A stretch of 39,034 bases of DNA from Bacteroidales bacterium (GTDB lineage: Bacteria > Bacteroidota > Bacteroidia > Bacteroidales > WCHB1-69): positions 1-39,034 of the forward strand of contig JAFZZT010000036.1 of assembly GCA_017615595.1 (NCBI GenBank), read 5' to 3'. The position numbers and the translations under genes were made by a program. A model generated the notes under the pieces. It did no database searches and had not been told where the DNA came from. It was given only the letters and a program-made list of their open reading frames with translations. Positions 3,302 to 28,876 of the stretch are shown piece by piece (the first letter of the stretch is position 1; each line of letters opens with the position of its first letter).

Positions 3302-5155
3302 ATGAAAAACATCACGATAAAAAGCATTTTGGTCATGGCGGTCATCGCCCTCTCCATGACCTCCCTCTCAGCCCAAGTTGTTGACTCCGCCAAGCTGCTC
3401 GTCAACTATGTGCCCAAGCTGGCCAAGAGCAACAAGATCAACCGAGACGCCGTCATCACGGACACGCTCCAAAGCACGGTGAGCTACAGTTATGAGATCA
3501 GTCCGCAGAAGCCCGAGCTCAACTTCACCACTGCCAAGCTGTCGTTCAGCAAGTTCAACCCCGAGGTGCCGGAGCGTTTCTACCGCAACTATCTGAAGTT
3601 AGGGTTTGGATACCCCATCACGCCGCTGGCAGAGCTGTCGGTGCACAACACCCGCAACGCCAAGTACTCCTACGGCCTCAACTTCCACCATTTCTCGTCA
3701 TGGGCCGAGCCCATCGGGAAAATCCAGAAGCAGTTCGCCTACGCGCCCACCAGCGACACCCGGCTGCATCTCTTTTTCAACCGCTACTTCAAGAACTACA
3801 CGCTCTACTCTTCCATAGGCTACAACCACGAGCTCGCCAACCTCTACGGGTACAGCCGCGAGTGGGGAATCCCGGACCTGTACTATGCCAAGGAGTACCG
3901 CGACAGCATCCGCAACAGTTTCCATCACGCCAAGGCGGAAATCGGATTCCGTTCCAACTACACCACGGAAGACAAGCGCTTCAAGGAGGACATCTGCCTC
4001 CACTATGATTTCCTTCACACCTATTGGAAAGATATGGAACATCAAGTCGGCCTGCGCTCCACCTTTGCCTATGACTCCCGTTTTATCAAGATTTCCGGTT
4101 TCCAGCATTATCAGTTGGATTTTGATGTGGACTATTACCTCAACAACTGGAATGACAGCATCATGGTTGGCGTTGAGCACAACATCCCCGCCAAAAATAT
4201 CGACAACAGCTTCAAGATAGAGTTGCGCCCCACCATGAGCTTTGCCATCAAAGAGTACCACCTCAAAGTCGGTGTGGGCGTGCCCATCCTCATGGCCAAC
4301 GACGAGACCAGATATCCGGTTTATCCCATCGCGGAGTTGCAGATGGGACTGGTTAGGAACATCCTGAGCCTCTATGTCGGCGTGGATGGTCAGTCCAAAT
4401 ACAACTCCCTGCGCGAGATGCTGTACGAGAACCCGTACGTCAAGCCGCAGCTAGACAGCCTGCGTTTCTCCCGCACCCAGATCAGCGTCTTTGGCGGCGT
4501 CAAGGGCAACTTGGTCAAGAGATTGAACTACCATATTGCAGCCAGATACTCCTTCGTGCAGGATATGCCATTCTATGTTTTGGATACCACCTGTCTGCTG
4601 AAGAACCAGTACGACGTAGTCTATGTGGACAAGGCCAACGTGTTGAATGTCAGTGCCAACATCAGCTGGGAGGCTATCAACCACCTCTACCTCAACTTGA
4701 ACGCCAACTACTGGGGCTACTATATCAAGCAAGACCAGCTGGAGCATCCGTGGTACAAGCCGTCTTGGGAGTTGGGATTTGAGGGCAAGTACATCCTCAA
4801 CAACAAGTTCATCTTCGACTTGAACGCCAAGGTTGGCTTCGGCCGCTGGGCTTTGGTTCCCAAGACCTCCTACGACGAGAACGGCAACATCTACATCTCC
4901 TCATATGAGGCTGCCAACGACCTGCAAAAGAACGAGAACGGAGAGCGTCTGGTCAAGCCCGTGCTGAACTTCGGACTGGGCTTCGAGTGGATCATCACCC
5001 CGCAGTTCACGGCCTTTGCCAATGTCAACAACATCGGTTGCCAATATGCCACCAATTACTATGCTTTCAACAACTTCGGCGTCAACGCATTGGTAGGTGT
5101 CACCTATTCATTTGGCAACGAGCCGTTGAAAGCGACTCGCAAAAAGAAAAATTAA
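3302..5155 (+). CDS. predicted outer-membrane beta-barrel protein
   Basis: A 617-aa protein with a clear signal peptide (residues 1-24, ending SLSAQ). The rest is dense in short amphipathic strands rich in Tyr, Phe, Trp and Asn (for example YLKLGFGYPITPLAELSVHN), as in Bacteroidota outer-membrane barrels. The C-terminus ends in a strand-like segment (NALVGVTYSFG) and a short Lys-rich tail. I see no TonB-box or plug domain at the N-terminus, so it is not a standard SusC/TonB-dependent receptor, although database labels of that kind are possible. It follows the large TPR gene by 18 bases and is very likely in the same operon, which suggests that the TPR protein and the barrel act together. The substrate or role is unknown. 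Confidence 0.75.
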   Translation: MKNITIKSILVMAVIALSMTSLSAQVVDSAKLLVNYVPKLAKSNKINRDAVITDTLQSTVSYSYEISPQKPELNFTTAKLSFSKFNPEVPERFYRNYLKLGFGYPITPLAELSVHNTRNAKYSYGLNFHHFSSWAEPIGKIQKQFAYAPTSDTRLHLFFNRYFKNYTLYSSIGYNHELANLYGYSREWGIPDLYYAKEYRDSIRNSFHHAKAEIGFRSNYTTEDKRFKEDICLHYDFLHTYWKDMEHQVGLRSTFAYDSRFIKISGFQHYQLDFDVDYYLNNWNDSIMVGVEHNIPAKNIDNSFKIELRPTMSFAIKEYHLKVGVGVPILMANDETRYPVYPIAELQMGLVRNILSLYVGVDGQSKYNSLREMLYENPYVKPQLDSLRFSRTQISVFGGVKGNLVKRLNYHIAARYSFVQDMPFYVLDTTCLLKNQYDVVYVDKANVLNVSANISWEAINHLYLNLNANYWGYYIKQDQLEHPWYKPSWELGFEGKYILNNKFIFDLNAKVGFGRWALVPKTSYDENGNIYISSYEAANDLQKNENGERLVKPVLNFGLGFEWIITPQFTAFANVNNIGCQYATNYYAFNNFGVNALVGVTYSFGNEPLKATRKKKN

Positions 5156-5219: not shown

Positions 5220-5293
5220 GGTCCCATAGCTCAGTTGGTTAGAGCATCTGACTCATAATCAGAGGGTCCAAGGTTCGAGCCCTTGTGGGACCA
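5220..5293 (+). tRNA. tRNA with CAU anticodon (elongator Met most likely, Ile2 possible)
   Basis: A 74-nt cloverleaf. The acceptor is GGTCCCA paired with TGGGACC and discriminator A at 5293. T8-A9 is followed by a GCTC/GAGC D-stem, a TCTGA/TCAGA anticodon stem with loop CTCATAA, and a T-arm containing GGTTCGAGCC. The anticodon is CAT. CAU tRNAs can be elongator methionine, initiator or lysidine-modified isoleucine. The fully paired first acceptor pair (G-C) argues against initiator; Met versus Ile2 cannot be settled by eye. No CCA is encoded after the discriminator, so it must be added after transcription. It has its own promoter box and terminator. Confidence 0.93.
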
Positions 5294-11049: not shown

Positions 11050-12039
11050 TTATTCCCCAAAAAACTTAGTGCTAACCGTCTTGTACTCACCCTTATCATC
11101 GTAGATGAAGTAGGCATCCAGTTCGGGGTGGCGGGACAGCAGTTCTATGGAGCGGTCCACGCCCAGCACCATGAAGGCGGTGGCGTAGGCATCGGCCGTC
11201 ATGCAGTCGGGAGCCAGCACCGTGACGCTGAGCAGGTTCGTCTCCTCGGGCGTGCCCTTGCGGGGATCCAGAATATGGGTATAGCGCTTGCCCTCCTTCT
11301 CGAAGTAGTTGCGGTAGTTGCCGGAGGTGGCCACGGCGCGTTTGCCAGGCTCGAAGCGGACGCTGCTCTCCACGGCGCCATCCTTGGTCGCGGTGGGCAC
11401 CTGGATGCCGACCACCCAAGATTTGCCGTCCGGCTTGCCATCTTTGGTGCCATGGCTTACCACCTCGCCGCCAATCTCCACGATAAAGTTCTCATAGCCT
11501 TGCTGGTGCAGAAACTGCGCCATCTGATCCACGGCGTACCCTTTGGCGATGGCGTTGAAGTTGAGCTGCGTGCGGGGATCCACCCGGACGAGCACACTGT
11601 CGTGTAGCGCCACCAGCTTATAGTTGACGAACTGCCGTACAGAGTCGAGCTGTTCCGGGGCGACCTGTCGGGGTTCCTTGTTGCGCCCGAAGCCCCAGAG
11701 CTCCACCAGCGGTTGCACGGTGAAGTCGAAGGCCCCGCCGGTGTGACGAGCCACCTCGGTGGCGCAGCGCAGGACATGCTCAAAGTCCGCATTGACGATG
11801 TTCTCGGAGCCTATGTTGAGGCGGGAGATCAGCGAGGCAGTGTCGAAGATGGAAAAGGTGCTGTTGAGGTCTGCCAGGAGGGAGTCCACACGGGCAGGCA
11901 GGTTTTGATCCTCATCGCCCAGATAGGTGATATGGTACATCGTGCCGAAGCAGGTGCCGGCAATCTGTTGTCGTTTGTCTTGATGGCAACTGACCAGCAA
12001 AAGGGTGAAGGACAAGAGGAGAATGAGGGGTGAACGCAT
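11050..12039 (-). CDS. apbE: FAD:protein FMN transferase, ApbE lipoprotein
   Basis: A 329-aa protein with a lipoprotein signal peptide (LLLVSC, lipid-modified Cys18). It transfers FMN from FAD to a Thr/Ser of target proteins such as NqrB/NqrC, RnfG/RnfD and other periplasmic flavoproteins, and should be anchored outside the cytoplasmic membrane. Family motifs are visible: GGAFDFTVQPLVELWGFG, NFNAIAKGYAVD, VEIGGEV, the RYTHILDPRKGTP segment and the metal-binding TADAYATAFMVLG. No target flavoprotein gene lies beside it; it is flanked by rnr and the AT-rich cassette. Its length is normal for the family. A promoter box is seen about 96 bases upstream. Confidence 0.95.
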   Translation of the reverse strand: MRSPLILLLSFTLLLVSCHQDKRQQIAGTCFGTMYHITYLGDEDQNLPARVDSLLADLNSTFSIFDTASLISRLNIGSENIVNADFEHVLRCATEVARHTGGAFDFTVQPLVELWGFGRNKEPRQVAPEQLDSVRQFVNYKLVALHDSVLVRVDPRTQLNFNAIAKGYAVDQMAQFLHQQGYENFIVEIGGEVVSHGTKDGKPDGKSWVVGIQVPTATKDGAVESSVRFEPGKRAVATSGNYRNYFEKEGKRYTHILDPRKGTPEETNLLSVTVLAPDCMTADAYATAFMVLGVDRSIELLSRHPELDAYFIYDDKGEYKTVSTKFFGE

Positions 12040-12142: not shown

Positions 12143-12158
12143 CACAATATTTGGAATG

Positions 12159-12494
12159 CTAATCCCACGGAGTTGCAAAACAAGCATAATAAAAACTATA
12201 ACAGGCAATCAACACGACTGCCACAAAAAACAGATACTCCCACCATCGGTTTTGTTTTCGATATGCAGTGAGGCAGTGCATTCCAAAGCCCACATGCATG
12301 GGCAGTTGTATCAAAAAAAGCACGTTATCTACCAAAATTGTAATAGACAACAATTCTGCCCGCCAAGAACCTGTTTGCTGAAATTGTCCCATGCATTGCT
12401 GTTCCCATCCAAAATATTCCAAGGCATAAAAAAACATAGCAACAATTACCAATATAATGGCATTGACATAATAAATGGTTTTATCTTTTTTCAT
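12159..12494 (-). CDS. small three-helix membrane protein, cassette gene 4 (unknown family)
   Basis: A 111-aa protein with three hydrophobic stretches at about 6-27, 48-70 and 88-107, and a short polar loop YRKQNRWWEYL at 78-88 before the last helix. The C-terminus is CFATPWD. The ATG at 12494 lies 6 bases after the stop of the previous cassette gene, so the genes are co-transcribed. It is a divergent paralogue of that neighbour: both carry C74, Y78, R79, Q81, W84, E86, Y87 and L88 at identical positions. The first helix and the C-terminal end are also echoed in the decayed copy at 14092-14280. Codons are AT-rich compared with apbE and tsaD. I do not recognise the family. A role as a membrane sensor or immunity-type protein is only a guess. 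Confidence 0.7.
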   Translation of the reverse strand: MKKDKTIYYVNAIILVIVAMFFYALEYFGWEQQCMGQFQQTGSWRAELLSITILVDNVLFLIQLPMHVGFGMHCLTAYRKQNRWWEYLFFVAVVLIACYSFYYACFATPWD

Positions 12495-12500
12495 GGCATC

Positions 12501-12827
12501 TTAAACAAAAAGCATTATAATAAATGGCATTGCTATGGTGAGCACTAAAAAGAGAACCTGTGCTAAATACTCTTTCCATATTTGTTGTTGACGATAGCGC
12601 AATCCGCAAAATGAAACCAATGCGATAGACAAAAGGAACAAGGGTATCAAACTAAAAATCTCGAATGTCAACACTTGCTCAGAATAGGATTCAAAAAAGC
12701 GATTGAAACAAGATATCAAGCCTGCTTGTACCATCTGATCAAAAATTAAAAAAAGTTGGGCAAGGAAATAGAGGGCTAAAACAACCCATACTGTGTTTTT
12801 CACAACGCGGCAATCGTTTCTCATCAT
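12501..12827 (-). CDS. small three-helix membrane protein, cassette gene 3 (unknown family)
   Basis: A 108-aa protein with helices at about 12-30, 56-76 and 88-107, and the loop YRQQQIWKEYL at 78-88. The ATG at 12827 shares its A with the TGA stop of the upstream gene (TGATG), which indicates translational coupling; a TTG one codon upstream is a less likely start. It is paralogous to the following 111-aa protein by shared layout and the position-exact motif described there, but overall identity is low, so the duplication is old. AT-rich like the rest of the cassette. Function unknown. Confidence 0.7.
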   Translation of the reverse strand: MMRNDCRVVKNTVWVVLALYFLAQLFLIFDQMVQAGLISCFNRFFESYSEQVLTFEIFSLIPLFLLSIALVSFCGLRYRQQQIWKEYLAQVLFLVLTIAMPFIIMLFV

Positions 12828-13273
12828 CAAATGTCTTTTGCTAAATCAAACAGTGCCTGCCAAGACTCATCTAATTTATCTAAAGACATCCACCCATATT
12901 CATATTTTTCATTGTTATTCTTTTTATACTTCGCGTAGAGATTAGCAGGCCATTGATTGAAAAATCTAAAGCTGACTTGTCCAGATTTGTCCACTTTAAC
13001 ATCTGGATGATATGGTGTTCCTCCTGGTACCTTATAGACTTTATCCTTATAAAGGCAGGTGGCCAAACCATCCACGTTAAGGTTTTTGCGACTGCGAGGT
13101 GCAATTTTATTCTTTTCATCATACGAACCATCTTCAGGTTTGTAATACACCACAGAATCACTATCGTTTGTCACACTGCCCCGAAGCAAATACGTTTCCT
13201 CCACTTCCGTCACCTCGCTCATATCAGCAACGGCATCCCACTCGTTGCGCCAGAAATCCATCATGTTGTTCAT
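12827..13273 (-). CDS. 148-aa protein of unknown family, cassette gene 2
   Basis: The open frame extends up to 13372, but a promoter box (TATCTTTG on the minus strand, 13330-13337) lies inside that extension. The ATG at 13273 is therefore the better start, with about 50 bases of A-rich leader. If the gene is instead translated from the polycistronic message, the ATG at 13354, which overlaps the upstream stop by 8 bases, is the alternative (175 aa). The shorter product has no signal peptide or membrane helix. It is hydrophilic, with a Lys/Asn/Tyr-rich second half (VYKVPGGTPYHPDVKVD; YAKYKKNNNEKYEYGWM). No known domain is recognised. Its stop is coupled to the next gene by TGATG. It is probably cytoplasmic. 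Function unknown. Confidence 0.65.
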   Translation of the reverse strand: MNNMMDFWRNEWDAVADMSEVTEVEETYLLRGSVTNDSDSVVYYKPEDGSYDEKNKIAPRSRKNLNVDGLATCLYKDKVYKVPGGTPYHPDVKVDKSGQVSFRFFNQWPANLYAKYKKNNNEKYEYGWMSLDKLDESWQALFDLAKDI

Positions 13274-13329
13274 ATTCACATTTGTATTAAAATCCTCTTT
13301 GTTGTTTCCCTTTCTATTAATTGCAACGG

Positions 13330-13337
13330 CAAAGATA
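13330..13337 (-). promoter_or_regulatory. candidate internal promoter of the cassette
   Basis: The minus-strand reading TATCTTTG is an exact TAnnTTTG box just after the stop of the 207-aa gene. It would let genes 2-4 be transcribed independently of gene 1. Confidence 0.5.
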
Positions 13338-13346
13338 GTAAAAAAG

Positions 13347-13970
13347 CTATTCATCCATGACGTTGAAGACATCCAATATGGAAGCCTTTCTTACAGTTTT
13401 ATTAATATCTAACCTCTCCTTTTTAAGGACTTCGCTCAAAGATTCGCCAGTCAACACTTTTTCAGGATATGACAGGCTCTCTGAGACAACCTCGCCAGTA
13501 GGGGCATATATTCCTATAAATTCAGGACAATTGACACCTGCACAATAATTGGCACCATATACCATAAAGAAGAATGATTGTTTGTTTTCAACAATTCCAA
13601 TATCAAAAACGGGAAGATTTTGCAAGACAATAGCCTTCCCGTCACATGTTTTATGTAAAGAAGTGGATATTTTGATCTCTTTTTGGGAAACAATGTTGCC
13701 TTTTTGATAAAAAATCAGAACTTGTTTTATTACATAGGGTCGTAAAAAACCATACGGAACATCTTGGTTGTAGTAGGTCCATTTTTCTGCCAAATCATGA
13801 TCGTACAAAAAAGTTCTGAGTTCGATTTCAAAGCTCTTATAAGATAGAGAGATGGTCGTATCTCTATAAAACTGACTGGCTTGAGCTTGAGCTTGAGCAT
13901 TATTGGCCATCATCCCTAAAAAGAGAAGGGCTACAACATATATTTTTATAGATGGTTTGAATAAAATCAT
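13347..13970 (-). CDS. secreted 207-aa protein of unknown family, cassette gene 1
   Basis: A Sec signal peptide (about residues 1-28: basic start, hydrophobic core YVVALLFLGMMA, then AQAQAQA) is followed by a soluble domain with three cysteines, including NYCAGVNCPEF near residue 150. The frame is open to 14039, but the TTG there is inside a promoter box, so the ATG at 13970, which begins the signal peptide, is preferred. No T9SS C-terminal domain or lipobox is seen, so the protein is probably periplasmic. Its last residues (ILDVFNVMDE) recur as ILDVFNVMT in the decayed copy next to tsaD. AT-rich. I do not recognise the family. Confidence 0.7.
   Translation of the reverse strand: MILFKPSIKIYVVALLFLGMMANNAQAQAQASQFYRDTTISLSYKSFEIELRTFLYDHDLAEKWTYYNQDVPYGFLRPYVIKQVLIFYQKGNIVSQKEIKISTSLHKTCDGKAIVLQNLPVFDIGIVENKQSFFFMVYGANYCAGVNCPEFIGIYAPTGEVVSESLSYPEKVLTGESLSEVLKKERLDINKTVRKASILDVFNVMDE
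13357..13379. repeat. cassette-end direct repeat, copy A
   Basis: This 23-base segment, in the last codons of the secreted-protein gene, matches 14281-14303 in 21 of 23 positions and in the same orientation. It marks one boundary of the duplicated material. Confidence 0.7.
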
Positions 13971-14036
13971 ACCTAACGTTTTAAAAATCCTACAGGCACT
14001 GCCAAAGGAGAGCTCTCTGTTAATTCTTTTGCTCTG

Positions 14037-14044
14037 CAAAGATA
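14037..14044 (-). promoter_or_regulatory. -7 promoter box for the AT-rich cassette
   Basis: The minus-strand reading TATCTTTG lies 66 bases before the ATG at 13970. Its position excludes the in-frame TTG at 14039 as a start. Confidence 0.6.
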
Positions 14045-14091
14045 ATAAAATTAATCAAAGTTTTATTGTGCAAAATGCCTATGAATCAAAG

Positions 14092-14302
14092 CTAATCCCA
14101 CGGCGTCACAAACCATACATAGTACAACACATTGAAGGCCCATCCCAACACTGCTACAAAAACAAACGCACTGTCGGATCTTTGTTGAAGCATAACTGAA
14201 GTACGAATGTATTCAAATATGAAACTGCACGTTGAACTAACGATCAACAATAATCCAACAAGATAGTATATGATTTTGTCATGACGTTAAAAACATCCAA
14301 TA

Positions 14303-14303
<1 letters not shown>
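14092..14303 (-). pseudogene. decayed partial duplicate of the cassette (end of gene 1 joined to a shortened membrane gene)
   Basis: Reading the minus strand from the tsaD stop, ILDVFNVM matches the last codons of the secreted-protein gene. Immediately afterwards, in a shifted frame, 62 codons (14280 to 14092) read DKIIYYLVGLLLIV ... LYYVWFVTPWD. These match the first helix (DKTIYYV) and the end (FYYACFATPWD) of the 111-aa membrane protein but lack its middle part, including the YR-Q-W-EYL loop. The membrane frame has no ATG at its beginning: the only nearby ATG (14283) leads to a 12-codon dead end. At DNA level GCTAATCCCACGG is shared at 12158-12170 and 14091-14103. It is either a pseudogene or a two-helix protein using a rare start; I prefer pseudogene. 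Confidence 0.65.
14281..14303. repeat. cassette-end direct repeat, copy B, touching the tsaD stop
   Basis: The second copy of the 23-base segment (two G/A differences). Its last base is the final base of the tsaD stop codon, so the duplicated material is joined exactly to the end of tsaD. Confidence 0.7.
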
Positions 14304-15319
<1,016 letters not shown>

Positions 15320-20186: not shown

Positions 20187-21371
20187 ATGGACAATAACAA
20201 ACTGAGCATCATCGCCATCATCATTATTCTGGGAGTACTCATCTTCATGGGTTGGTTCTTCTGGGACATCCTGGTCTATATGCTTGTTTCGCTGGCCCTT
20301 TGTTTCTTGGGGCAGCCCATCATGAAGCTCTTGGCAAAGATCCAGATCAAAAATTGGCAGATGCCCAAGGCCTTGGCCTCTGCCATCACCTTGATTGTCA
20401 TTGTGGGTGTCATCGTCCTGGCAGGCTACTTCCTCATCCCCGTGGTCATGCGGGAGCTCACCTCGTTGATGGCCATAGATCCGCAAGCCTTGAGTGGCAA
20501 CATTGCCAACTGGCTCAACGGGTTAGATCCCATGCTCCGGCGCTTCGGCCTTTTGAACGACAACGAGCACTTCTCCACCTTTGTCATGGAGGAGATGCAG
20601 CGCACCATCGACAAGATCGACATGTCCAATGTGGTCAGCGACACCTTCCATGTGGCATCGAAACTCATCCTGTCCTTATTCTGCATCATGTTCATGACCT
20701 TCTTTGCCTTGAAGGACAACGGCATCTTCTTCAGGATGATCAAGAAATGGTTGCCGAAGCGTTTTCACCAGAACTTCACCAACATCTTGAACGCCACTGG
20801 CGAGCAGCTCACCTCCTATTTTGTGGGTGTATTCATGGACATGCTCATCATAGCCGTTTTGGAGACCATCCTTTGCTTGATACTGAGGGTTCCGAAGCCG
20901 CTCTTGATCGGCACCTTGGGTGGCTTGTTGAACATCATCCCGTTTGTGGGTCCTATCCTCTCGGCCGTGCTGGGTGTCATCATTGCCCTCACCTCGATGA
21001 TCGCCTCGGATCCTGGTTCCTCCGTCATTGTCAGCACCATCGTCAAAGTGATTGCCATCGTGGTGCTGGCCAAAGGTCTGGATGTCTTCATCTTCCAGCC
21101 TCAGATCTATGGAAAACGGACGCACACACATCCTTTGGAAATCTTCATCGTGATTTTGATGGCTGCCTACATCGGCGGTGTTTTTGCCATCTTCTTCGCT
21201 GTTCCCGGCTACACGCTCCTGCGTATCGTAGTCAATGAGTTCTTCGGCGCCTATTTCTCTGAGGATGACGATCTGACTGGCGGAGGAACGAAACCACCAG
21301 AATACCTGCCGGAAGAATCAACACCACCAATCAAGGAAGAGGCTTACAGCACCACCAACGAGCCTTTGTAG
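20187..21371 (+). CDS. AI-2E (PerM/UPF0118) family transporter
   Basis: A 394-aa polytopic membrane protein of the AI-2E transporter family. Hydrophobic segments are at about 6-45 (two helices), 65-88, 155-175 and four to five more between 210 and 345. A conserved region PLLIGTLGGLLNIIPFVGPILSAVLG lies near 235-260 and a C-terminal FFAVPGYTLLRIVVNEFF segment near 330. Family members export small solutes or autoinducer-2, or act as Na+/H+ antiporters; the substrate cannot be inferred. The ATG at 20187 follows the repeat array and a short AT-rich spacer without an obvious promoter box. The acidic/Thr-rich tail overlaps the 3' end of the convergent adhesin gene by 28 bases. Confidence 0.88.
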   Translation: MDNNKLSIIAIIIILGVLIFMGWFFWDILVYMLVSLALCFLGQPIMKLLAKIQIKNWQMPKALASAITLIVIVGVIVLAGYFLIPVVMRELTSLMAIDPQALSGNIANWLNGLDPMLRRFGLLNDNEHFSTFVMEEMQRTIDKIDMSNVVSDTFHVASKLILSLFCIMFMTFFALKDNGIFFRMIKKWLPKRFHQNFTNILNATGEQLTSYFVGVFMDMLIIAVLETILCLILRVPKPLLIGTLGGLLNIIPFVGPILSAVLGVIIALTSMIASDPGSSVIVSTIVKVIAIVVLAKGLDVFIFQPQIYGKRTHTHPLEIFIVILMAAYIGGVFAIFFAVPGYTLLRIVVNEFFGAYFSEDDDLTGGGTKPPEYLPEESTPPIKEEAYSTTNEPL

Positions 21372-24300
21372 AGGTACGGACGTCCGCTGGCATTGGTGCA
21401 GCGGATGACATAGTTGTAGGTATTGTCATAGTAATTTTTACCCCGGACCTCCCCATTCCACTGGAAGTTTTTATCCGTAGAAAAGAAGACCAGCTCACCC
21501 CATCGGTTATAGATCGCTATTTCAAACTCATCAATCAGCAACTGGGTTCTTTCGGGTATGCAGAAATAGTCGTTCAATCCGTCACCATTGCTGGGCGTGA
21601 TGGCATTGGGAAGATATAAGCGGATATCGCATGATTCAATGGTGTATTGCGCATATACCATGCAATCGTTTTGAGAAGCCTGCACCGTATAGGTTCCTGA
21701 ATGGGTAGCGGTGATCTGCTGGGTATGGGCACCGGTATTCCACAGATAATTCGTCATGGAGGTGACTGCTGTAAGCTCCGCGGATAGTTCCTCGCAGAAA
21801 TCGTCAGTCGAGGAGAGAATCGTCAACGCGGTGTCGATGACGGTCAGCTCCAGATTGACAATACTGTCACACCCATTGACTGTTTGCAGATAGAGGGTTC
21901 TGGCGAGGGCGTTGACATCCACCGTCTCCGTTCGCGGAATATTGAAGCCGTATTTCGCATACGCAGAACCTTCGCATACATCATCCTCAATATCAATATC
22001 ATAGACGGGATTAACCGTCAGCTTGAGCACCACCAGACTATCACAATGTCCTGTGGTCAGAAGATTTTCAAAGAAGAGAAGACCTGGCGTGGCCGTTTCT
22101 GTTGCTGAGATGTCGAAGCCGTTGCCCTGGTAGGGACTGTTTTGACAGACGGTGGCGGTGACGGTGTCCACAAAGTTGAGCCATGTGGTCACGGTCACGG
22201 TGTCGCTATACACCGTGCCGCAGGATTGGCTTATCCAGGCGCGGCGCAACGAGAAGGAGGTCGTGGCAGGATCCGGATAGGTGTAGTTTTGGCCATTATT
22301 GGCTCCCGGAGCAGGAGACCAGGCAGTTCCATTGGAGGAGATCTGCCACTGGTACGCGCCATTGTCGCCACCCGAGGCAGTCGTTCCCGTAAACGGAGCC
22401 ACATCCCCGTCAATACAGACATCCTGGTTGGCGGATATCGTGCCTGGCTGCAGCGGACCGTTCACATGGTCCAGCGTCACCGTAGTCGTGGCGGAACAGC
22501 CGATCTGGTCCGTCACCGTGAAGTGGTAGGTGCCTACCGGTTGACCTGCAAAGGAGGTGTTGTTCGCTATCGGCGAACCGCCCGCGCCAGTCCACTGGTA
22601 GGTGAACGGTGCTTGTCCGCCCGTGACGGTTGCCGTGGCAGCGCCCGTGGAATCACCATAGCAAAGCACCTGCGTCACATTGCCGAGTGCAGTCGTGATG
22701 ACATCCACCATCAGATGACAGTTCAAGACACTGTCAGCGCCATTGGCAGCAGTCAATGTCACACTCTGGGTGGCGTCATTGGTGAAATTCAGCCCATGCC
22801 ACACATACGGCAGGTTGGTGGCACAGACCGTGGTGTCAATCGTCATGGACACATTTTGATAAACCGTCAGATTCAAGGTGAGGAGGCTGTCGCAGCCCAG
22901 CGAATTGGTCAAGTGTTGGGTATAGGAGCCACTGGTATTATAGCTTTGGCCGTTGAGTGTATAGGGCAGGTTGTTCTGCACAATGGTAGCGTTGATGGTC
23001 GAGGAGGAGGCGGGCAGCAGGGCCACCGTCATCACCACCGTGCTATCCACGCCGTTGGCCGCCGTCAAGACCGCGTTCTGCGTGCCCGCAGTCGTGAAGG
23101 TCTTGCCGTTCCAGTGCAGCGGCAATTCCTCGGCACAGACCGCACTATCTGCGATCGTCTGCACATTGTACAGCACTGTCAAGTTCACGATCAACGTGCT
23201 GTCGCAGCCATGGACATTCTGCATTTGTTGTTGATAGGATCCGGGAGTGGAATAGCTATGACCATTAACCACCAACGGCAGGTTGTTTTGCAGCATGGTC
23301 GTGTCTATGATGGCGGTAGTAGGCACAAAGACCGACAAGGTGACGGTCGTGTCGTAAGAACAGCCGAAGTCATCGTAGAAATGGACAATATAGGTCACGA
23401 TTGTATCGTGAGGCAACGTGTCAGGCGGGGTGATGAGGAAGGTAGTGTCGGAGACTTGCTGAATCCACGGTCCCTCGGCAATGGCATGTGTCATCGGGGT
23501 GCTGCTGACAGGCAGCAATGAGGGGTCGAGGGCCAGCTCCCAGCCAAACACATAGCCGTTGTCGCCACTCCAACCGTCCACCACCTCAATAAACCAGGAG
23601 CCGTTCAGCGGGCAACCCACCAAATTGGCAAAGGACTGGTCAGGATGATAGAAGTGTGTGCCCGCCGCCACATGGGAAGAGTCCACGATGTCGTTATGCT
23701 CATTGACGGCCCGGTATATCAGGCTGCCTGCGCCCGGAGCGTAGGTATAGCCCTGAGTAGTATTGTTCGACCAGCAGTAGTTCCAGCCAATGCCTGGGGC
23801 ATTAAGAGGATCATTAGGATTACAATCATTCCATCCCTCATAATCGAATGCTTGTCCCAGATAAGTCCAGCCACTCATATTGTTTCCACCACCTTGCCAT
23901 CCCACTCCTTGTGCCGGTATGCTATTGTTGCAGTTGGATGTTCCAGAACCGCCATACCGCAAGATATGCGACCGCTGTCCATTAGGACAGGTGATATTGA
24001 TATAGAGATCCCCAATGAAAGAGTGCTCCATATTCAACCTAACGTACAGAATATCGTTGACACTCTGAATGGTGGAACCGGGGGTAAAGTCGGTGAAGGT
24101 AAGCGGCGAGCGGTATGAGCAACCGTATGGCGGACATGAGACGCCATCGGGCAGGAAGATGGTCTCCGCTATGGAGAGCGTGGAGGTGCCGTGAGCGAAC
24201 TCTATGGTAACATTGTTAGAATAGCCCAGTGTCAGGGCATAGCTGCCGCCTGCGCACATATTGAAGGGGGTGATGCCCACAATCTGGTCCATCTCGCTGA

Positions 24301-27300
24301 GGGAGATGCTGTGCATAGCCGAGGCGACACAGCCGTGCTCATCCGTCACCGTCACGGAATAGTCTCCCGGTTGCGTCACCGCCAATGTCTGTGTGGTGAC
24401 GCCCGTATTCCAGAAATAGGAATGGGCACTGTCAACGGTCAGTACGGTGGTGTTGCCGGGACAGATGTAGAGATCTCCGGTGATCTGGGCGACTGGCGAC
24501 TGGTACAGTCCCACCGTCATCACCACCGTGCTATCCACCCCGTTGGCCGCCGTCAAGACTGCACTCTGCGTGCCCGCAGTCGTGAAGGTCTTGCCATTCC
24601 ACGTCAACGGCAGTTGCTCCGGACAAACCATAGAATCCACCAAGGTCTGCACATTGTTGAGGATGGTAAGATGGACGGTCAGCAGGCTGTCGCAGCCGTG
24701 TACATTGGTCAGTTGCTGATCGTAGGTGCCGGATGTCGTATAGGTATAGCCGTTCAATGTGAAAGGCAGATGGTTTTCAGCCACGACTGTGTCGATAGAT
24801 GAACTGGTAGGCAAATACACTGGCAAGGTGATGGTGGTGTCGTAGCCGCATCCATAGTCGTCATAGAGATGGACGATATATGTCACCAGGGTGTCATGTT
24901 GCAAAGTGGCAGGAGGAGTGATGATGAAGGTAGTATCCGTCACCTGCTGAATCCACGAGCCCTCAGCGGTGGCATGTGTCACCGGGTTGCTGGTCATCGG
25001 CAGCAACGATGGGTCAAGGGCCAACTCCCAGCCGAAGATATAGCCGTTGTCACCACCCCATCCATCCAGCACTTCGATATACCATGAGCCATTCAGCGGA
25101 CAGCCCACCAAATTGGCAAACGACTGATCAGGATGATAAAAACGGGATCCTGCCGCCACATTGGAAGAGTCCACAATGCCGTTATGCGCATTGTTGGATC
25201 GATAAATCAGACTGCCCGCGCCAGGGGCGTAAGTATAGCCCTGAGAGGTATTGTTCGACCAACAGTAGTTCCAACCTATACCTGGGGCATTGTAAGGGTC
25301 TGTAGGATCGCAATCATCCCAGCCCTCATCATCGAATGCTTGTCCCAGCCAAGTGGACTTATACATATTGGATCCACTCTGCCATGAGATGCTGGCAGCG
25401 GGGATACTACTGTTACAGGCAGAAGAGCCTGTGCCTCCGTACTTGAGAATGTCCGCCTTTTGACCGTTTGGACAGGTGATGTTGATATAGACATCCCCTA
25501 TGAAAGAGTGCTCCATATTCAGGCGGACAAAGAGAATGTCATTCACATTCTGGATAGTGGCACCCGGCGCAAAATCGGTAAACGTCAGCGGAGATTGGTA
25601 CGAACACCCGTAGGGTGAGCACGGGACTCCATCCGGCAGAAAGATAGTGTCGGACAAGGATAGAGAAGCGATGCCATGGGTGAGTTCGATGGTGCTGGTA
25701 TCAGCATATCCCACCGTCAACAAGTAGCTGCCGCCGGCGCACATGTCGAAGGTGTTGATGTTCACGATATTGTCCAACTCGCTCACCGCGACACTATGGC
25801 TGGTAGAGGCCATACAGCCGAACGCATTGGTCACCGTCAGCGAATATTCCCCGGGCGCTGTCACCAGGATGGACTGGGCGGTGGAGCCCGTACTCCAAAG
25901 GTAGGTGACGGCACTGTCGGAGGTCAGCACCAAGCTGCTGTCAGGGCACATATAGGGCAGGCCGGAGATATGGGCATCTGGTGACGGGTAGAGAGTCAGC
26001 ACCATGAAAACGGTGCTATCCACCCCGTTGGCCGCTGTCAAGAGCGTGCTCAGGGTATCCATAGCCGTGAAGGTCACGCCGTTCCACGTCAGCGGCAGGG
26101 ACTCGGGACAGACAATCGTGTCAATGATCGTCTCTACGTTGGGCAAGACAGCCAGATGCACCGTCAACAAGCTGTCACAGCCATGCACACTGGTCAGGAC
26201 CTGCTCGTAGGTTCCTGCCTGCGAATAGCTGTGACCGTTCAAAGTCAGCGGTAGATTGTTTTGCAGCACCACCGTGTCCAAAATGGCAGTGACAGGCAAA
26301 AACACCGGCAGCGTGATGGTCGTGTCATAACTGCAGCCGTAATTATCGTAAAGATGGACGATGTAGGTCACCATCGTATCGCTGGTCAAGGTGTCGGGCG
26401 GAGTGATGAGGAAGGTGGTGTCGGTCAGCTGTTGAATCCACAGTCCATCGGCGGTGGCATGTGTCACGGGGTTGATATTCGAAGGCAGCAGAGAGGGATC
26501 CAGTGCCAACTCCCAGCCGAAGATATAGCCATTGTCGATAGCCCAGCCATCCATCACCTCTATAAACCAAGCACCATTCAGCGGGCATCCCACCAAACTC
26601 GCAAACGATTGATCGGGATGATAGAAATTCATTCCGGCATTCACGTCTGAAGAATCCACAATCATGTGCATCTCTGCATCATTGTGCGCATTTTCGACAC
26701 GATACATCAAGCTGCCAGGACCGGGAGCATAGACATAGCCTTGGGCGACATTGTTCGACCAGCAATAGTTCCACCCGACACCAGGCTCGTTATACGAGTC
26801 ATTCGGATCACAATCATTCGTCCCTTCGTAGTCGTAAGCTTGTCCCAGCCATGTCTCAACACTCGTATTGTTTCCACTCTGCCACGTTCTGCTGGAAGGC
26901 GGGATATTGCTATTGCATTCAGAGTCGCCAGTACCACCATATTTAAGGATGTCTGCCTTATGTCCATTCGGGCAAGTGATATTGATATAGATATCTCCGA
27001 GATACGAATGTTCCATATTCAGGCGGACATAGAGAATATCGTCCACGCTTTGGATTGTAGCGCCCGGGATAAAATCGTCAAAGGTCAGCGAAGACTGGTA
27101 AGAGCAGCCATAAGGCGTACAGAGAACTCCATCAGGCAGGAAGACAGTGTCGGACAAGGAGAGCGTGGATACGCCTGGCGCCAGCTGAATGGTAGAGGTG
27201 TCGCCATAGCCCACGGACATGATGTAGCTGCCGCCGGCGCACATATCAAAGGGGTTGATGCTCACCACCTGATCCAGTTCGCTATAGAGCACGCTATGGG

Positions 27301-28876
27301 CGGCAGTGTCGGCACAGCCGTATTCGTTGGTCACCGTCACGACATAGAAGCCCGGCTCCGTCACCACGATGGACTGGGCGGTGGAGCCCATACTCCAGAT
27401 GTAGTTGCTGGCACTGTCGGCGGTCAGCACCACACTGCTGTCTTCGCACATGAAAGGATCGCCAGTGATGTGGGCGATGGGCGAAGGATAGAGATTCACG
27501 GTCAGCATCACGATGCTGTCCACACCATTTGACCCTTGGAGCACGAGAGAATGGGTCCCCGCCTCCGTAAAGAGTTCATCGCGCCAGAGCAACGGCAATT
27601 TTTCGGGGCAGACCAGTGTGTCCACATGCAACGTGTCGGGAGAAGGCAGCACATGCAGCACCAGCGTCACCACGCTGTCACACTGCTGAAAGGAGGAGAG
27701 TGTCTCCACCAGACTGTCTTCGTCCGCAAACCAATGTCCCTGCCAATAGAGGGGCAGATCCGCAGAGAAGACCGTAGTGTCCAATTGCTGGTAGGTCGAA
27801 GGTATGATGGTGATCTGTGCAGAGACCACGCTATCGCAGCCGTTGGCCGCGGTGAATGTCTGGCTATAGACTCCGCTTTCGTAGTAGGTAGTGCCGTTCC
27901 AGACCAGGCTATTGCAGGCGACCAGGGTGATGGTCGTGTCTTGGGCACCTTTCACGAGCAAGTGGAGGGTAAGGGTGGAGCTGCAATCGCCAGTCTCCAT
28001 GGTGCGATTGAGCGTGAGGGTCCCGACCGTGTCTGTCTGCGCCACGGTGAGGGCAAATCCATTGGCATCGTAGCCGGCGCCCCGGCAGACGGTGTCATAG
28101 ATGGTCTCCGACACACCGTTGCCCACCAGGATGATCTGTTCCGAGGTGTTTGTACACCCATATTCGGTGGTAGCCGTCACCGAGTAGGTGGCGGTCTGGG
28201 ATGGCGACACCTCAATGTTCGGCTGCGTGCTGCCGGTGTTCCAGAGATAGGTCAGCGAGGTGTCGTGCACCACGGTCGAATATGAGAAACTGCGTATGGC
28301 ACGGACACAGTTAAACCAAGTGTTGTCCTTGATCCAGGTTTGAAAATCACCGGGATAATAGGTTCCGAAATCAACCCTGTATGCTTCGGCAGCCGACTGT
28401 TCGGCACTTGTCCAATATGCCATGTTCGTATTAGTATTCATGGCAGTGCCACCTGCCTGCAGGATCCTTGGTGTGATGATGGGCGTCATGCCAAAGAGCA
28501 GACTCAGCTGTCCAGGTGCGGGTATGTACCATCCATGTTCAAAATCCACGCTCCATGCTGCATAGTATGGCGAATAGGGTTGCGCCGCCCGCATGGCTTG
28601 GGTGTGGGCATATCCGGCAGTATCCAGCAAGAGTTGCTGGGCAAAGTCCACCTCTGTATTCACCAATTCGACCATATCAGTCAACGTATCTCCCCACATG
28701 CACTGCTCGCAGGCATTGTCCAGAGCCACCACCCAGCCTCCGCTTCCATCCGGATGAAGATAGAAGACAATGCCCTGGCTTCCGTCCGGTGCCGTGTACA
28801 GATCTCCAATCTGATAACTCTGGGCAGATATCAGATTGCAGAAGCACAAGAGCAATATGGTGAGAAACCTTTTCAT
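21344..28876 (-). CDS. giant T9SS-exported surface adhesin (type B sorting domain)
   Basis: A 2510-aa protein. Signal peptide 1-18 (ending LISAQ). Residues about 20-197 form an Lcl/DUF1566-like domain (HGWYIPAPGQLSLLFG, YWTSAEQ, VRAIRSF). Next come Ig/PKD-like and 60-70-residue modules ending GCDSxxTLxLxV; about 14 such modules occur overall. Residues 464-1954 are three tandem ~500-residue units, each with an Ig-like module, a P-domain-like module and two GCDS/GVDS modules. A SprB repeat (LCYGDSTGAATATVTGG...) is at about 2065-2136, then further Ig-like modules. The C-terminal 90 residues (LPNAITPSNGDGLND, IYNRWGELVF, YKGSLVVL) are the gliding-motility-associated type B sorting domain. It should be exported by T9SS and displayed at the cell surface, probably in adhesion. 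The ATG at 28876 lies 13 bases after its operon partner. Confidence 0.92.
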   Translation of the reverse strand: MKRFLTILLLCFCNLISAQSYQIGDLYTAPDGSQGIVFYLHPDGSGGWVVALDNACEQCMWGDTLTDMVELVNTEVDFAQQLLLDTAGYAHTQAMRAAQPYSPYYAAWSVDFEHGWYIPAPGQLSLLFGMTPIITPRILQAGGTAMNTNTNMAYWTSAEQSAAEAYRVDFGTYYPGDFQTWIKDNTWFNCVRAIRSFSYSTVVHDTSLTYLWNTGSTQPNIEVSPSQTATYSVTATTEYGCTNTSEQIILVGNGVSETIYDTVCRGAGYDANGFALTVAQTDTVGTLTLNRTMETGDCSSTLTLHLLVKGAQDTTITLVACNSLVWNGTTYYESGVYSQTFTAANGCDSVVSAQITIIPSTYQQLDTTVFSADLPLYWQGHWFADEDSLVETLSSFQQCDSVVTLVLHVLPSPDTLHVDTLVCPEKLPLLWRDELFTEAGTHSLVLQGSNGVDSIVMLTVNLYPSPIAHITGDPFMCEDSSVVLTADSASNYIWSMGSTAQSIVVTEPGFYVVTVTNEYGCADTAAHSVLYSELDQVVSINPFDMCAGGSYIMSVGYGDTSTIQLAPGVSTLSLSDTVFLPDGVLCTPYGCSYQSSLTFDDFIPGATIQSVDDILYVRLNMEHSYLGDIYINITCPNGHKADILKYGGTGDSECNSNIPPSSRTWQSGNNTSVETWLGQAYDYEGTNDCDPNDSYNEPGVGWNYCWSNNVAQGYVYAPGPGSLMYRVENAHNDAEMHMIVDSSDVNAGMNFYHPDQSFASLVGCPLNGAWFIEVMDGWAIDNGYIFGWELALDPSLLPSNINPVTHATADGLWIQQLTDTTFLITPPDTLTSDTMVTYIVHLYDNYGCSYDTTITLPVFLPVTAILDTVVLQNNLPLTLNGHSYSQAGTYEQVLTSVHGCDSLLTVHLAVLPNVETIIDTIVCPESLPLTWNGVTFTAMDTLSTLLTAANGVDSTVFMVLTLYPSPDAHISGLPYMCPDSSLVLTSDSAVTYLWSTGSTAQSILVTAPGEYSLTVTNAFGCMASTSHSVAVSELDNIVNINTFDMCAGGSYLLTVGYADTSTIELTHGIASLSLSDTIFLPDGVPCSPYGCSYQSPLTFTDFAPGATIQNVNDILFVRLNMEHSFIGDVYINITCPNGQKADILKYGGTGSSACNSSIPAASISWQSGSNMYKSTWLGQAFDDEGWDDCDPTDPYNAPGIGWNYCWSNNTSQGYTYAPGAGSLIYRSNNAHNGIVDSSNVAAGSRFYHPDQSFANLVGCPLNGSWYIEVLDGWGGDNGYIFGWELALDPSLLPMTSNPVTHATAEGSWIQQVTDTTFIITPPATLQHDTLVTYIVHLYDDYGCGYDTTITLPVYLPTSSSIDTVVAENHLPFTLNGYTYTTSGTYDQQLTNVHGCDSLLTVHLTILNNVQTLVDSMVCPEQLPLTWNGKTFTTAGTQSAVLTAANGVDSTVVMTVGLYQSPVAQITGDLYICPGNTTVLTVDSAHSYFWNTGVTTQTLAVTQPGDYSVTVTDEHGCVASAMHSISLSEMDQIVGITPFNMCAGGSYALTLGYSNNVTIEFAHGTSTLSIAETIFLPDGVSCPPYGCSYRSPLTFTDFTPGSTIQSVNDILYVRLNMEHSFIGDLYINITCPNGQRSHILRYGGSGTSNCNNSIPAQGVGWQGGGNNMSGWTYLGQAFDYEGWNDCNPNDPLNAPGIGWNYCWSNNTTQGYTYAPGAGSLIYRAVNEHNDIVDSSHVAAGTHFYHPDQSFANLVGCPLNGSWFIEVVDGWSGDNGYVFGWELALDPSLLPVSSTPMTHAIAEGPWIQQVSDTTFLITPPDTLPHDTIVTYIVHFYDDFGCSYDTTVTLSVFVPTTAIIDTTMLQNNLPLVVNGHSYSTPGSYQQQMQNVHGCDSTLIVNLTVLYNVQTIADSAVCAEELPLHWNGKTFTTAGTQNAVLTAANGVDSTVVMTVALLPASSSTINATIVQNNLPYTLNGQSYNTSGSYTQHLTNSLGCDSLLTLNLTVYQNVSMTIDTTVCATNLPYVWHGLNFTNDATQSVTLTAANGADSVLNCHLMVDVITTALGNVTQVLCYGDSTGAATATVTGGQAPFTYQWTGAGGSPIANNTSFAGQPVGTYHFTVTDQIGCSATTTVTLDHVNGPLQPGTISANQDVCIDGDVAPFTGTTASGGDNGAYQWQISSNGTAWSPAPGANNGQNYTYPDPATTSFSLRRAWISQSCGTVYSDTVTVTTWLNFVDTVTATVCQNSPYQGNGFDISATETATPGLLFFENLLTTGHCDSLVVLKLTVNPVYDIDIEDDVCEGSAYAKYGFNIPRTETVDVNALARTLYLQTVNGCDSIVNLELTVIDTALTILSSTDDFCEELSAELTAVTSMTNYLWNTGAHTQQITATHSGTYTVQASQNDCMVYAQYTIESCDIRLYLPNAITPSNGDGLNDYFCIPERTQLLIDEFEIAIYNRWGELVFFSTDKNFQWNGEVRGKNYYDNTYNYVIRCTNASGRPYLYKGSLVVL
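23015..24502 (-). repeat. adhesin repeat unit 3 (496 codons, residues 1459-1954)
   Basis: Same order of modules, with CPPYGCSYR, DCNPNDPLNAPG and LVGCPLNGSWFIEV. Some DNA stretches are nearly identical to unit 2 (for example the HRYGGTG-type and TAANGVDSTVVMTV codons), which suggests unit exchange or recent duplication. Confidence 0.88.
24503..25987 (-). repeat. adhesin repeat unit 2 (495 codons, residues 964-1458)
   Basis: Same order of modules as unit 1, with CSPYGCSYQ, DCDPTDPYNAPG and LVGCPLNGSWYIEV. It is shorter than unit 1 mainly because it lacks the AEMHM-type insertion after the AHN motif. Confidence 0.88.
25988..27487 (-). repeat. adhesin repeat unit 1 (500 codons, residues 464-963)
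   Basis: Begins at PSPIAHITG and runs to the next PSPDAHISG. It contains a CAGGSY motif near residue 546, a CTPYGCSYQ pair, HSYLGDIYINITCPNG, the DCDPNDSYNEPG insertion and LVGCPLNGAWFIEV. Confidence 0.88.

Follow-up and report, generated by a model that had tools for sequence, protein, structure and literature searches.

A probable effector-immunity locus with a short conserved leader between tsaD and apbE in a Bacteroidales genome

A four-gene island between tsaD and apbE

The window, by which the whole stretch of 39,034 nucleotides analysed here is meant, belongs to a Bacteroidales genome of 2.1 Mb in 53 contigs (G000). Four co-oriented AT-rich genes lie on its minus strand between tsaD and apbE, and all four were present as open reading frames. 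In reading order these encode a 207-aa secreted protein (13970-13347), a 148-aa soluble protein (13273-12827), a 108-aa membrane protein (12827-12501, with an ATG at 12827, or 109 aa with a TTG start) and a 111-aa membrane protein (12494-12159). The whole island spans 12156..14302 (2.15 kb) and was delimited by the break in DNA homology relative to related genomes together with the lowest G+C.

The first-pass annotation had pointed to a sharp drop in base composition between apbE and tsaD, which was borne out by a G+C content of 37.0% for the island against 53.4% for the rest of the window. The island had the lowest G+C among equal-length stretches taken at steps of 50 bases (mean 52.6%, sd 3.8%), and a recount of G/C per 60-base line reproduced the annotated values of 21 at 12661-12720 and 41 at 11161-11220. 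Third-position G+C was 0.34-0.42 in the four cassette genes, 0.70 in tsaD and 0.78 in apbE. The TGATG overlap between the 148- and 108-aa genes and the 6-base gap between the 108- and 111-aa genes were likewise correct, while the proposed coupling of all four genes held for the last three, which are tightly spaced, and not for the 207- and 148-aa genes, which are 73 bp apart. No model in Pfam or NCBIfam reached its cut-off for any of the four proteins and PADLOC and PHROGs gave nothing convincing. With no convincing library match and a different gene at the site in close relatives, the description as an accessory cassette of unrecognised families was upheld. The only Rfam match was a tRNA at 5220-5293, far from the island. 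Elsewhere in the window (21344-28876, minus strand) a 2510-aa protein with SprB repeats, a P-domain and a CHU_C type IX secretion signal domain was observed.

Promoter-like elements of the form TATCTTTG, which we take to be the Bacteroidetes -7 box, were located on the minus strand at 13330..13337 before the 148-aa gene and at 14037..14044 before the 207-aa gene. The pattern TAnnTTTG was seen three times on the minus strand of the island against 1.7 expected, so that the count alone is no evidence. The element at 13337-13330 consists of a T run followed by CTATCTTTG and recurs in G017 and G019 before the first of the genes that share the leader described below. A sigma-70-type scan returned 10 promoter-like sites against 7.0 expected and three terminator-like sites against 1.9 expected, and was left unused because these counts were near expectation.

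The tsaD locus was compared in 30 of the 34 genus genomes with a strong tsaD match, including the window itself, the other four having come without the locus. In four of the other 29 (G012, G018, G017 and G011; tsaD 96-99% identical) apbE starts within the 1.4-1.5 kb examined behind tsaD, and the cassette is replaced by a single opposite-strand gene of 366-417 codons that is alike by eye in the four genomes and was matched by the RHS_repeat model in the one copy scanned, that of G012. Homology with these genomes at the DNA level breaks off at the tsaD stop (14303-14309) and picks up again at 12153-12155, immediately after the last gene of the cassette. The interval therefore varies between close relatives, which have other genes at the site, and the cassette seems to be a replacement rather than an operon of ancestral origin. 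A different gene followed by an RHS-repeat-like gene adjoins tsaD in G026 (tsaD 97%), with no homology to the apbE side within the stretch examined; this gene (L056), which by eye we take to be RhuM-like, represents a third state of the variable interval. No apbE was found within the stretch examined in the remaining 24 genomes, one stretch ending 218 bp behind tsaD, and a gene that is ribonuclease R-like by eye lies behind tsaD in G013, G021 and G005.

Directly behind tsaD in the window is the remnant of a second copy (14092..14303, minus strand), in which the last codons of a 207-type gene are joined to a shortened 111-type gene. Its matches extend over 24 nt at 92% (the end of the 207-type gene) and 37 nt at 78%. 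The shortened 111-type gene aligned with z 11.3 to the 111-aa gene of G031, a genome of the same genus, and with z 3.4 to the intact copy in the window. Since the remnant is closer to the G031 gene, a different second allele with 207-type and 111-type genes was once present here and has since decayed. The remnant is the sole observation linking the 207-aa gene with the other three genes as a block, and it concerns the tsaD-apbE site only.

The leader and C-terminal domain of the 148-aa protein

The 148-aa gene begins with a conserved leader of 22 codons (13208..13273, minus strand) with the sequence MNNIMDFWRNEWDAVADTSEVT, about 22 residues including one conserved arginine. Seven copies were found in four of 104 family genomes (one in G000, two in G031, one in G017 and three in G019), all within one genus and always at the starts of small genes. 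In one copy, G019a, a stop interrupts the gene shortly behind the leader; this copy was included in the codon comparison and excluded from the comparison of C-terminal parts. Among the six copies with a readable C-terminal part the leader was identical at 14-19 of 20 residues in all 15 pairs, while the C-terminal parts fell into three classes consisting of G000 with G031a, of G031b with G017 and G019b, and of G019c. C-terminal similarity between classes gave z -0.9 to 1.6, with at least 42 of 500 shuffles reaching each score, against z 7.8 to 157 within classes.

Over 20 codons of all seven copies, pN was 0.095 and pS 0.654 (pN/pS 0.15, from totals of 147 silent and 99 replacement differences across 21 non-independent pairs), and over the first ten codons pN was 0.021 and pS 0.765. 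With pN far below pS, the leader has been kept as protein and not merely as DNA for recombination, and by this codon comparison it is under strong protein-level constraint. No recognised secretion signal was found in the leader and no export system was tied to it; an amphipathic helix was weakly suggested, with 8% of shuffles reaching its moment.

A degenerate pattern for the leader core had exact matches in three records of the genome_contigs collection, a count that misses diverged copies and may leave out records of the window's own genome. These records were from the Bacteroidales MAGs RGIG9679 and RGIG9758 (yak omasum) and from the uncultured Bacteroidetes genome RUG11592, which judging by its prefix is presumably from the rumen. 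The exact degenerate pattern had no match in viral contigs. A small open reading frame of about 44 residues, ending in GECCGCPQTQIIHG in one copy, was seen ahead of leader genes in three genomes (G031, G017 and G019), and in G031 ahead of two toxin-less partner-type genes as well. It was located at 4238-4369, 3511-3606 and 5620-5751 of L022 (G031) and upstream of the leader genes in L023 and L024, and it gave seven match rows in three of 40 genomes (a single frame accounting for two of the rows) and was not found in G000. A literature text search for DFWRNEW had no match, which is weak since motif letters are rarely searchable text, and the leader is without description in the available portions of PMC12247911, PMC3482391 and PMC10435454.

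A copy of the 148-aa protein with 70% identity was found in G031. Residues 32-147 of the search sequence also matched a 114-residue stretch that stops 5 residues short of the end of a full-length Rhs protein of 3065 aa in G027 (30% identity over 127 columns, pairwise E 8e-9; genome search E 9.1e-6). The matching domain stands there behind the Rhs core and a spacer, which is the position of a toxin tip, and a small membrane-protein gene (109 aa) lies directly behind the Rhs gene. A suspected relationship of this 109-aa protein to the 108-aa protein could not be detected, as its alignments with the membrane proteins of the window (z 0.35 and 0.39) were no better than shuffles. When a profile of the domain was run on 393 genomes drawn from the order, two matched, the window's own and, weakly, G361 (E 1.6e-4 to 4.9e-4). 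G031 was evidently absent from this draw, since it would have matched. In G361 the domain forms the outer part of 152-154-aa proteins that have membrane segments by eye and are not evident toxins. Three tandem, nearly identical 154-aa domain-bearing proteins of G361 (L052, 1339-2753) were observed next to an integrase gene and genes of phage-like appearance.

Neither a catalytic motif nor a known toxin family could be assigned to the 148-aa protein from Pfam, NCBIfam, PADLOC, PHROGs or a PDB sequence search, or to the G027 domain from Pfam and NCBIfam. A PDB sequence search with the profile of the C-terminal domain gave no match, and with the profile of the 213-aa effector class of G031 and G017 the best E was 0.23, which is not significant. 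Pfam and NCBIfam searches on ten related effectors, partners and relatives gave one match with E <0.001, to an Rhs core remnant in the G027 piece, and it was below the cut-off. The motifs H-D-G-P and G-C-I-E prompted an L,D-transpeptidase-like assignment for the 213-aa class, which was dropped because neither Pfam nor the PDB search supported it. The 148-aa protein had no match in plasmid or phage collections and relatives of its domain were absent from viral contigs.

Partner genes and the 207-aa secreted protein

The 108- and 111-aa proteins have three predicted membrane segments each. Their alignment scored z 6.5, reached by none of 1000 plain shuffles, and z 4.0 with segment-preserving shuffles (0 of 1000), which at the sequence level makes them paralogues. 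Each of the two genes was found in two of the 40 genus genomes searched, a set that includes G000, and in both (G000 and G031) they follow the 148-aa gene in identical order, the G031 copies being 76% identical for the 108-aa type and 67% for the 111-aa type. As read from translations, the G031 block of 148-, 109- and 111-aa genes is flanked by lplA- and gph-like genes on one side and by ArgK-like and lon-like genes on the other; because these flanks are other housekeeping genes, the block occurs in two places. A search for the gene order in other flanking contexts, as had been suggested, therefore recovered the last three genes at a second locus in the same order. The G031 block has no 207-type gene, and the four genes could not be retained as one unit.

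In five of the six leader copies with a C-terminal part (all but G019c, which had no evident partner gene) the gene directly behind encodes a protein with membrane segments or, by eye, a signal-like start. Two effector/partner sets recur in different surroundings, namely the 148-109-111 set in G000 and G031 and a 213-aa effector with a 144-aa partner in G031 and G017 (84.5% and 79%). A 167/168-aa protein is found behind an effector in G019 and without the effector in G031. Such a recurrence of partners would be expected where effector-immunity sets lose their toxins but retain the immunity genes. No Imm model in Pfam matched the 108- or 111-aa protein, and judging by gene order the two are likely the immunity proteins of the 148-aa protein.

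The 207-aa protein has a hydrophobic segment at residues 1-19 and its family was found in five of 40 genomes, comprising G000, G022, G018, G011 and, as a 63-aa piece at a contig end, G036. No second copy of the gene was present in G000. The relatives have 26-39% identity and lie in or beside the Rhs-tip arrays of G022, G018 and G011, three of the four genomes besides the window's own. The gene stands directly behind an Rhs tip in G022, between two tip sets in G018, and after a 64-codon open reading frame and before an Rhs tip in G011. The stretches examined around these three relatives, whose surroundings are readable, contained no part of the block. The secreted protein is unlikely to be the effector of the cassette, since its relatives are placed like immunity genes within the Rhs-tip arrays. 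It is a putative immunity protein of the kind found in those arrays and is probably an orphan here, because no Rhs tip adjoins it. A PDB sequence search with the family profile gave a best E of 0.36, which is not significant; the protein had no match in plasmids and the family had no relatives in viral contigs.

Interpretation and comparison with known systems

We read the island, with a probability of roughly 0.7, as a polymorphic effector-immunity locus in which the 148-aa protein would be the effector, the 108- and 111-aa proteins its immunity proteins and the 207-aa protein an extra and probably orphan immunity protein as in the Rhs arrays of the genus. Such a locus would have been swapped into the tsaD-apbE interval. 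The 148-aa gene would encode a stand-alone effector with a short constant leader and a C-terminal domain that can be exchanged and also serves as a toxin tip of Rhs proteins, and the paralogous three-segment membrane proteins encoded directly behind it would protect against this effector. Membrane immunity proteins in turn suggest an action of the toxin at the envelope or across it. The island with its boundaries, the conserved leader before unrelated C-termini, the domain found also in an Rhs protein, the linkage of the last three genes at two loci and the decayed second copy are observed; toxicity, immunity, export and target are inferred. Points that weigh against this reading are the lack of a catalytic motif or known toxin family, the membrane protein behind the G027 Rhs gene with no detectable relationship to those of the window, the absence of a recognised secretion signal and of an export system tied to the leader, the distant G361 copies that are not evident toxins, the small number of leader copies, seven in one genus, and the lack of an evident partner gene for G019c. 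The effector/immunity layout offered in the first-pass annotation is supported, with roles reassigned so that the soluble 148-aa protein is probably the effector and the membrane pair probably its immunity proteins. The locus is patchily distributed, new in its leader and familiar in its logic, and its effector-immunity nature is probable.

Displaced Rhs tips are common in the genus and the domain of the 148-aa protein is also found in an Rhs protein, which would fit a silent storage cassette in which the 148-aa gene is a displaced tip with a new start, never exported and kept to recombine into full-length Rhs genes. The displaced tips in the loci examined, however, keep Rhs core sequence, whereas the leader is unrelated to the Rhs core. 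The leader is also conserved as protein (pS 0.65, pN 0.10) and follows a recurrent promoter-like element, so we regard storage as unlikely. The probabilities assigned to the main and alternative readings overlap and need not sum to one, storage sharing most of the main reading. Three displaced Rhs tips were observed in L088 and L089 (G000:C50 and G000:C53), and the gene behind each of them encodes a protein whose start looks signal-like by eye.

A purely defensive locus of the polyimmunity or acquired interbacterial defence kind would consist of orphan immunity or decoy proteins throughout, the 148-aa protein included, which would then have no toxin function. Such a locus would account for the 207-aa protein as an orphan immunity gene and for the failure to place the 148-aa protein in a toxin family. 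Arrays of orphan immunity genes are a familiar feature of Bacteroidales, as the available part of PMC12247911 describes. The occurrence of the 148-aa domain at the Rhs toxin position, and of varying domains behind a constant leader, is however effector architecture, and polyimmunity loci are described as never interrupted by toxins in the accessible text of PMC3482391. No tyrosine recombinase was present among the 15 window proteins scanned with Pfam, a set confined to the window within its 103-kb contig and lacking two open reading frames close to the 3' end. A solely defensive role is accordingly somewhat less credible again than storage.

A module of the toxin-antitoxin or stress kind that works inside the cell, with membrane antitoxins and no use between cells, would agree with the absence of a recognised export signal in the 148-aa protein and of a contractile spike in the leader genomes. 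The spike family PF04717 (Phage_base_V), the one family tested, had no match in G000, G017, G019 or G031 (completeness 92, 95, 97 and 85%), and its absence from all four through an assembly accident is unlikely. It matched four of 40 genomes (G006, G028, G036 and G038; L084-L087), which have Hcp-VgrG-PAAR-like genes by eye. The T6SS_VipA model matched none of the 40 genomes; as it was blank also in these four, the search is uninformative and was dropped as a sign that type VI secretion is absent. Set against an intracellular module are the signal-like starts, by eye, in partners of other leader genes and the sharing of the domain with a giant Rhs protein, which leave it improbable. An operon for membrane signalling or envelope maintenance with no part in conflict, prompted by the company of secreted, soluble and membrane proteins to which no family was assigned, has very little to recommend it given that each membrane gene occurs in two of 40 genomes, that another gene holds the site in close relatives and that C-termini vary behind a fixed leader.

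Within the effector-immunity reading, we tentatively raise the doubtful possibility that certain small antibacterial effectors of rumen Bacteroidales form a class with MNNIMDFWRNEWDAVADTSEVT as its recognition tag, which would use a non-contractile route possibly shared with the Rhs proteins of the genus. The Rhs core was found in 37 of the 40 genus genomes, including all 23 near-complete ones, with five matches in G000, and being nearly universal it cannot be linked to the leader by co-occurrence. If the tag reading were true, 22 residues would do the work of thousands of Rhs residues. An export or recruitment tag would also provide a short handle for finding effectors in Bacteroidales that lack a recognised secretion system, and a pool of toxin domains would then be common to Rhs tips and small stand-alone effectors of rumen Bacteroidales.

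Among known systems, the RIX effectors of type VI secretion resemble the leader proteins in their short constant N-terminus, varied C-terminal domains and narrow taxonomic range. In the available portion of PMC10435454, RIX occupies residues 1-55 as a constant, arginine-rich part before diverse C-terminal toxins, the genes are scattered outside secretion clusters, and 97.7% of carrier genomes have a type VI system. The leader here, in contrast, is about 22 residues long and has a single conserved arginine, and its four carrier genomes gave no match for a spike gene. The AID/rAID loci of gut Bacteroidales, as presented in the accessible part of PMC12247911, are alike in their small co-oriented genes and share with the island the feature of an orphan immunity gene, of which there is probably one here; unlike them, the island has no recombinase in the proteins tested, a single probable orphan gene and a probable effector. 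Imm17 is a two-segment membrane immunity type in the portion of PMC3482391 available; the 108- and 111-aa proteins, with three predicted segments each, matched no Imm model in Pfam.

Rhs/YD-repeat proteins and their displaced tips have in common with the island the C-terminal domain and the 207-aa family, which is shared with Rhs arrays, while no RHS model of Pfam or NCBIfam matched the 148-aa protein, so that RHS repeats and a core before the domain were not found. Polymorphic toxin systems with stand-alone cassettes, as far as the available text of PMC3482391 describes them, similarly show a domain common to giant Rhs proteins and small genes, a partner gene behind and arrays; here, unlike there, the stand-alone gene has its own constant leader and its domain matches no model searched. 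Three features by which polymorphic toxins are recognised were found in this locus, with a constant N-terminus (14-19 of 20 leader residues) before variable C-termini of three unrelated classes, a domain that also stands behind other trafficking domains in one 3065-aa Rhs protein, and a putative immunity gene directly downstream that travels along, its order being kept between G000 and G031.
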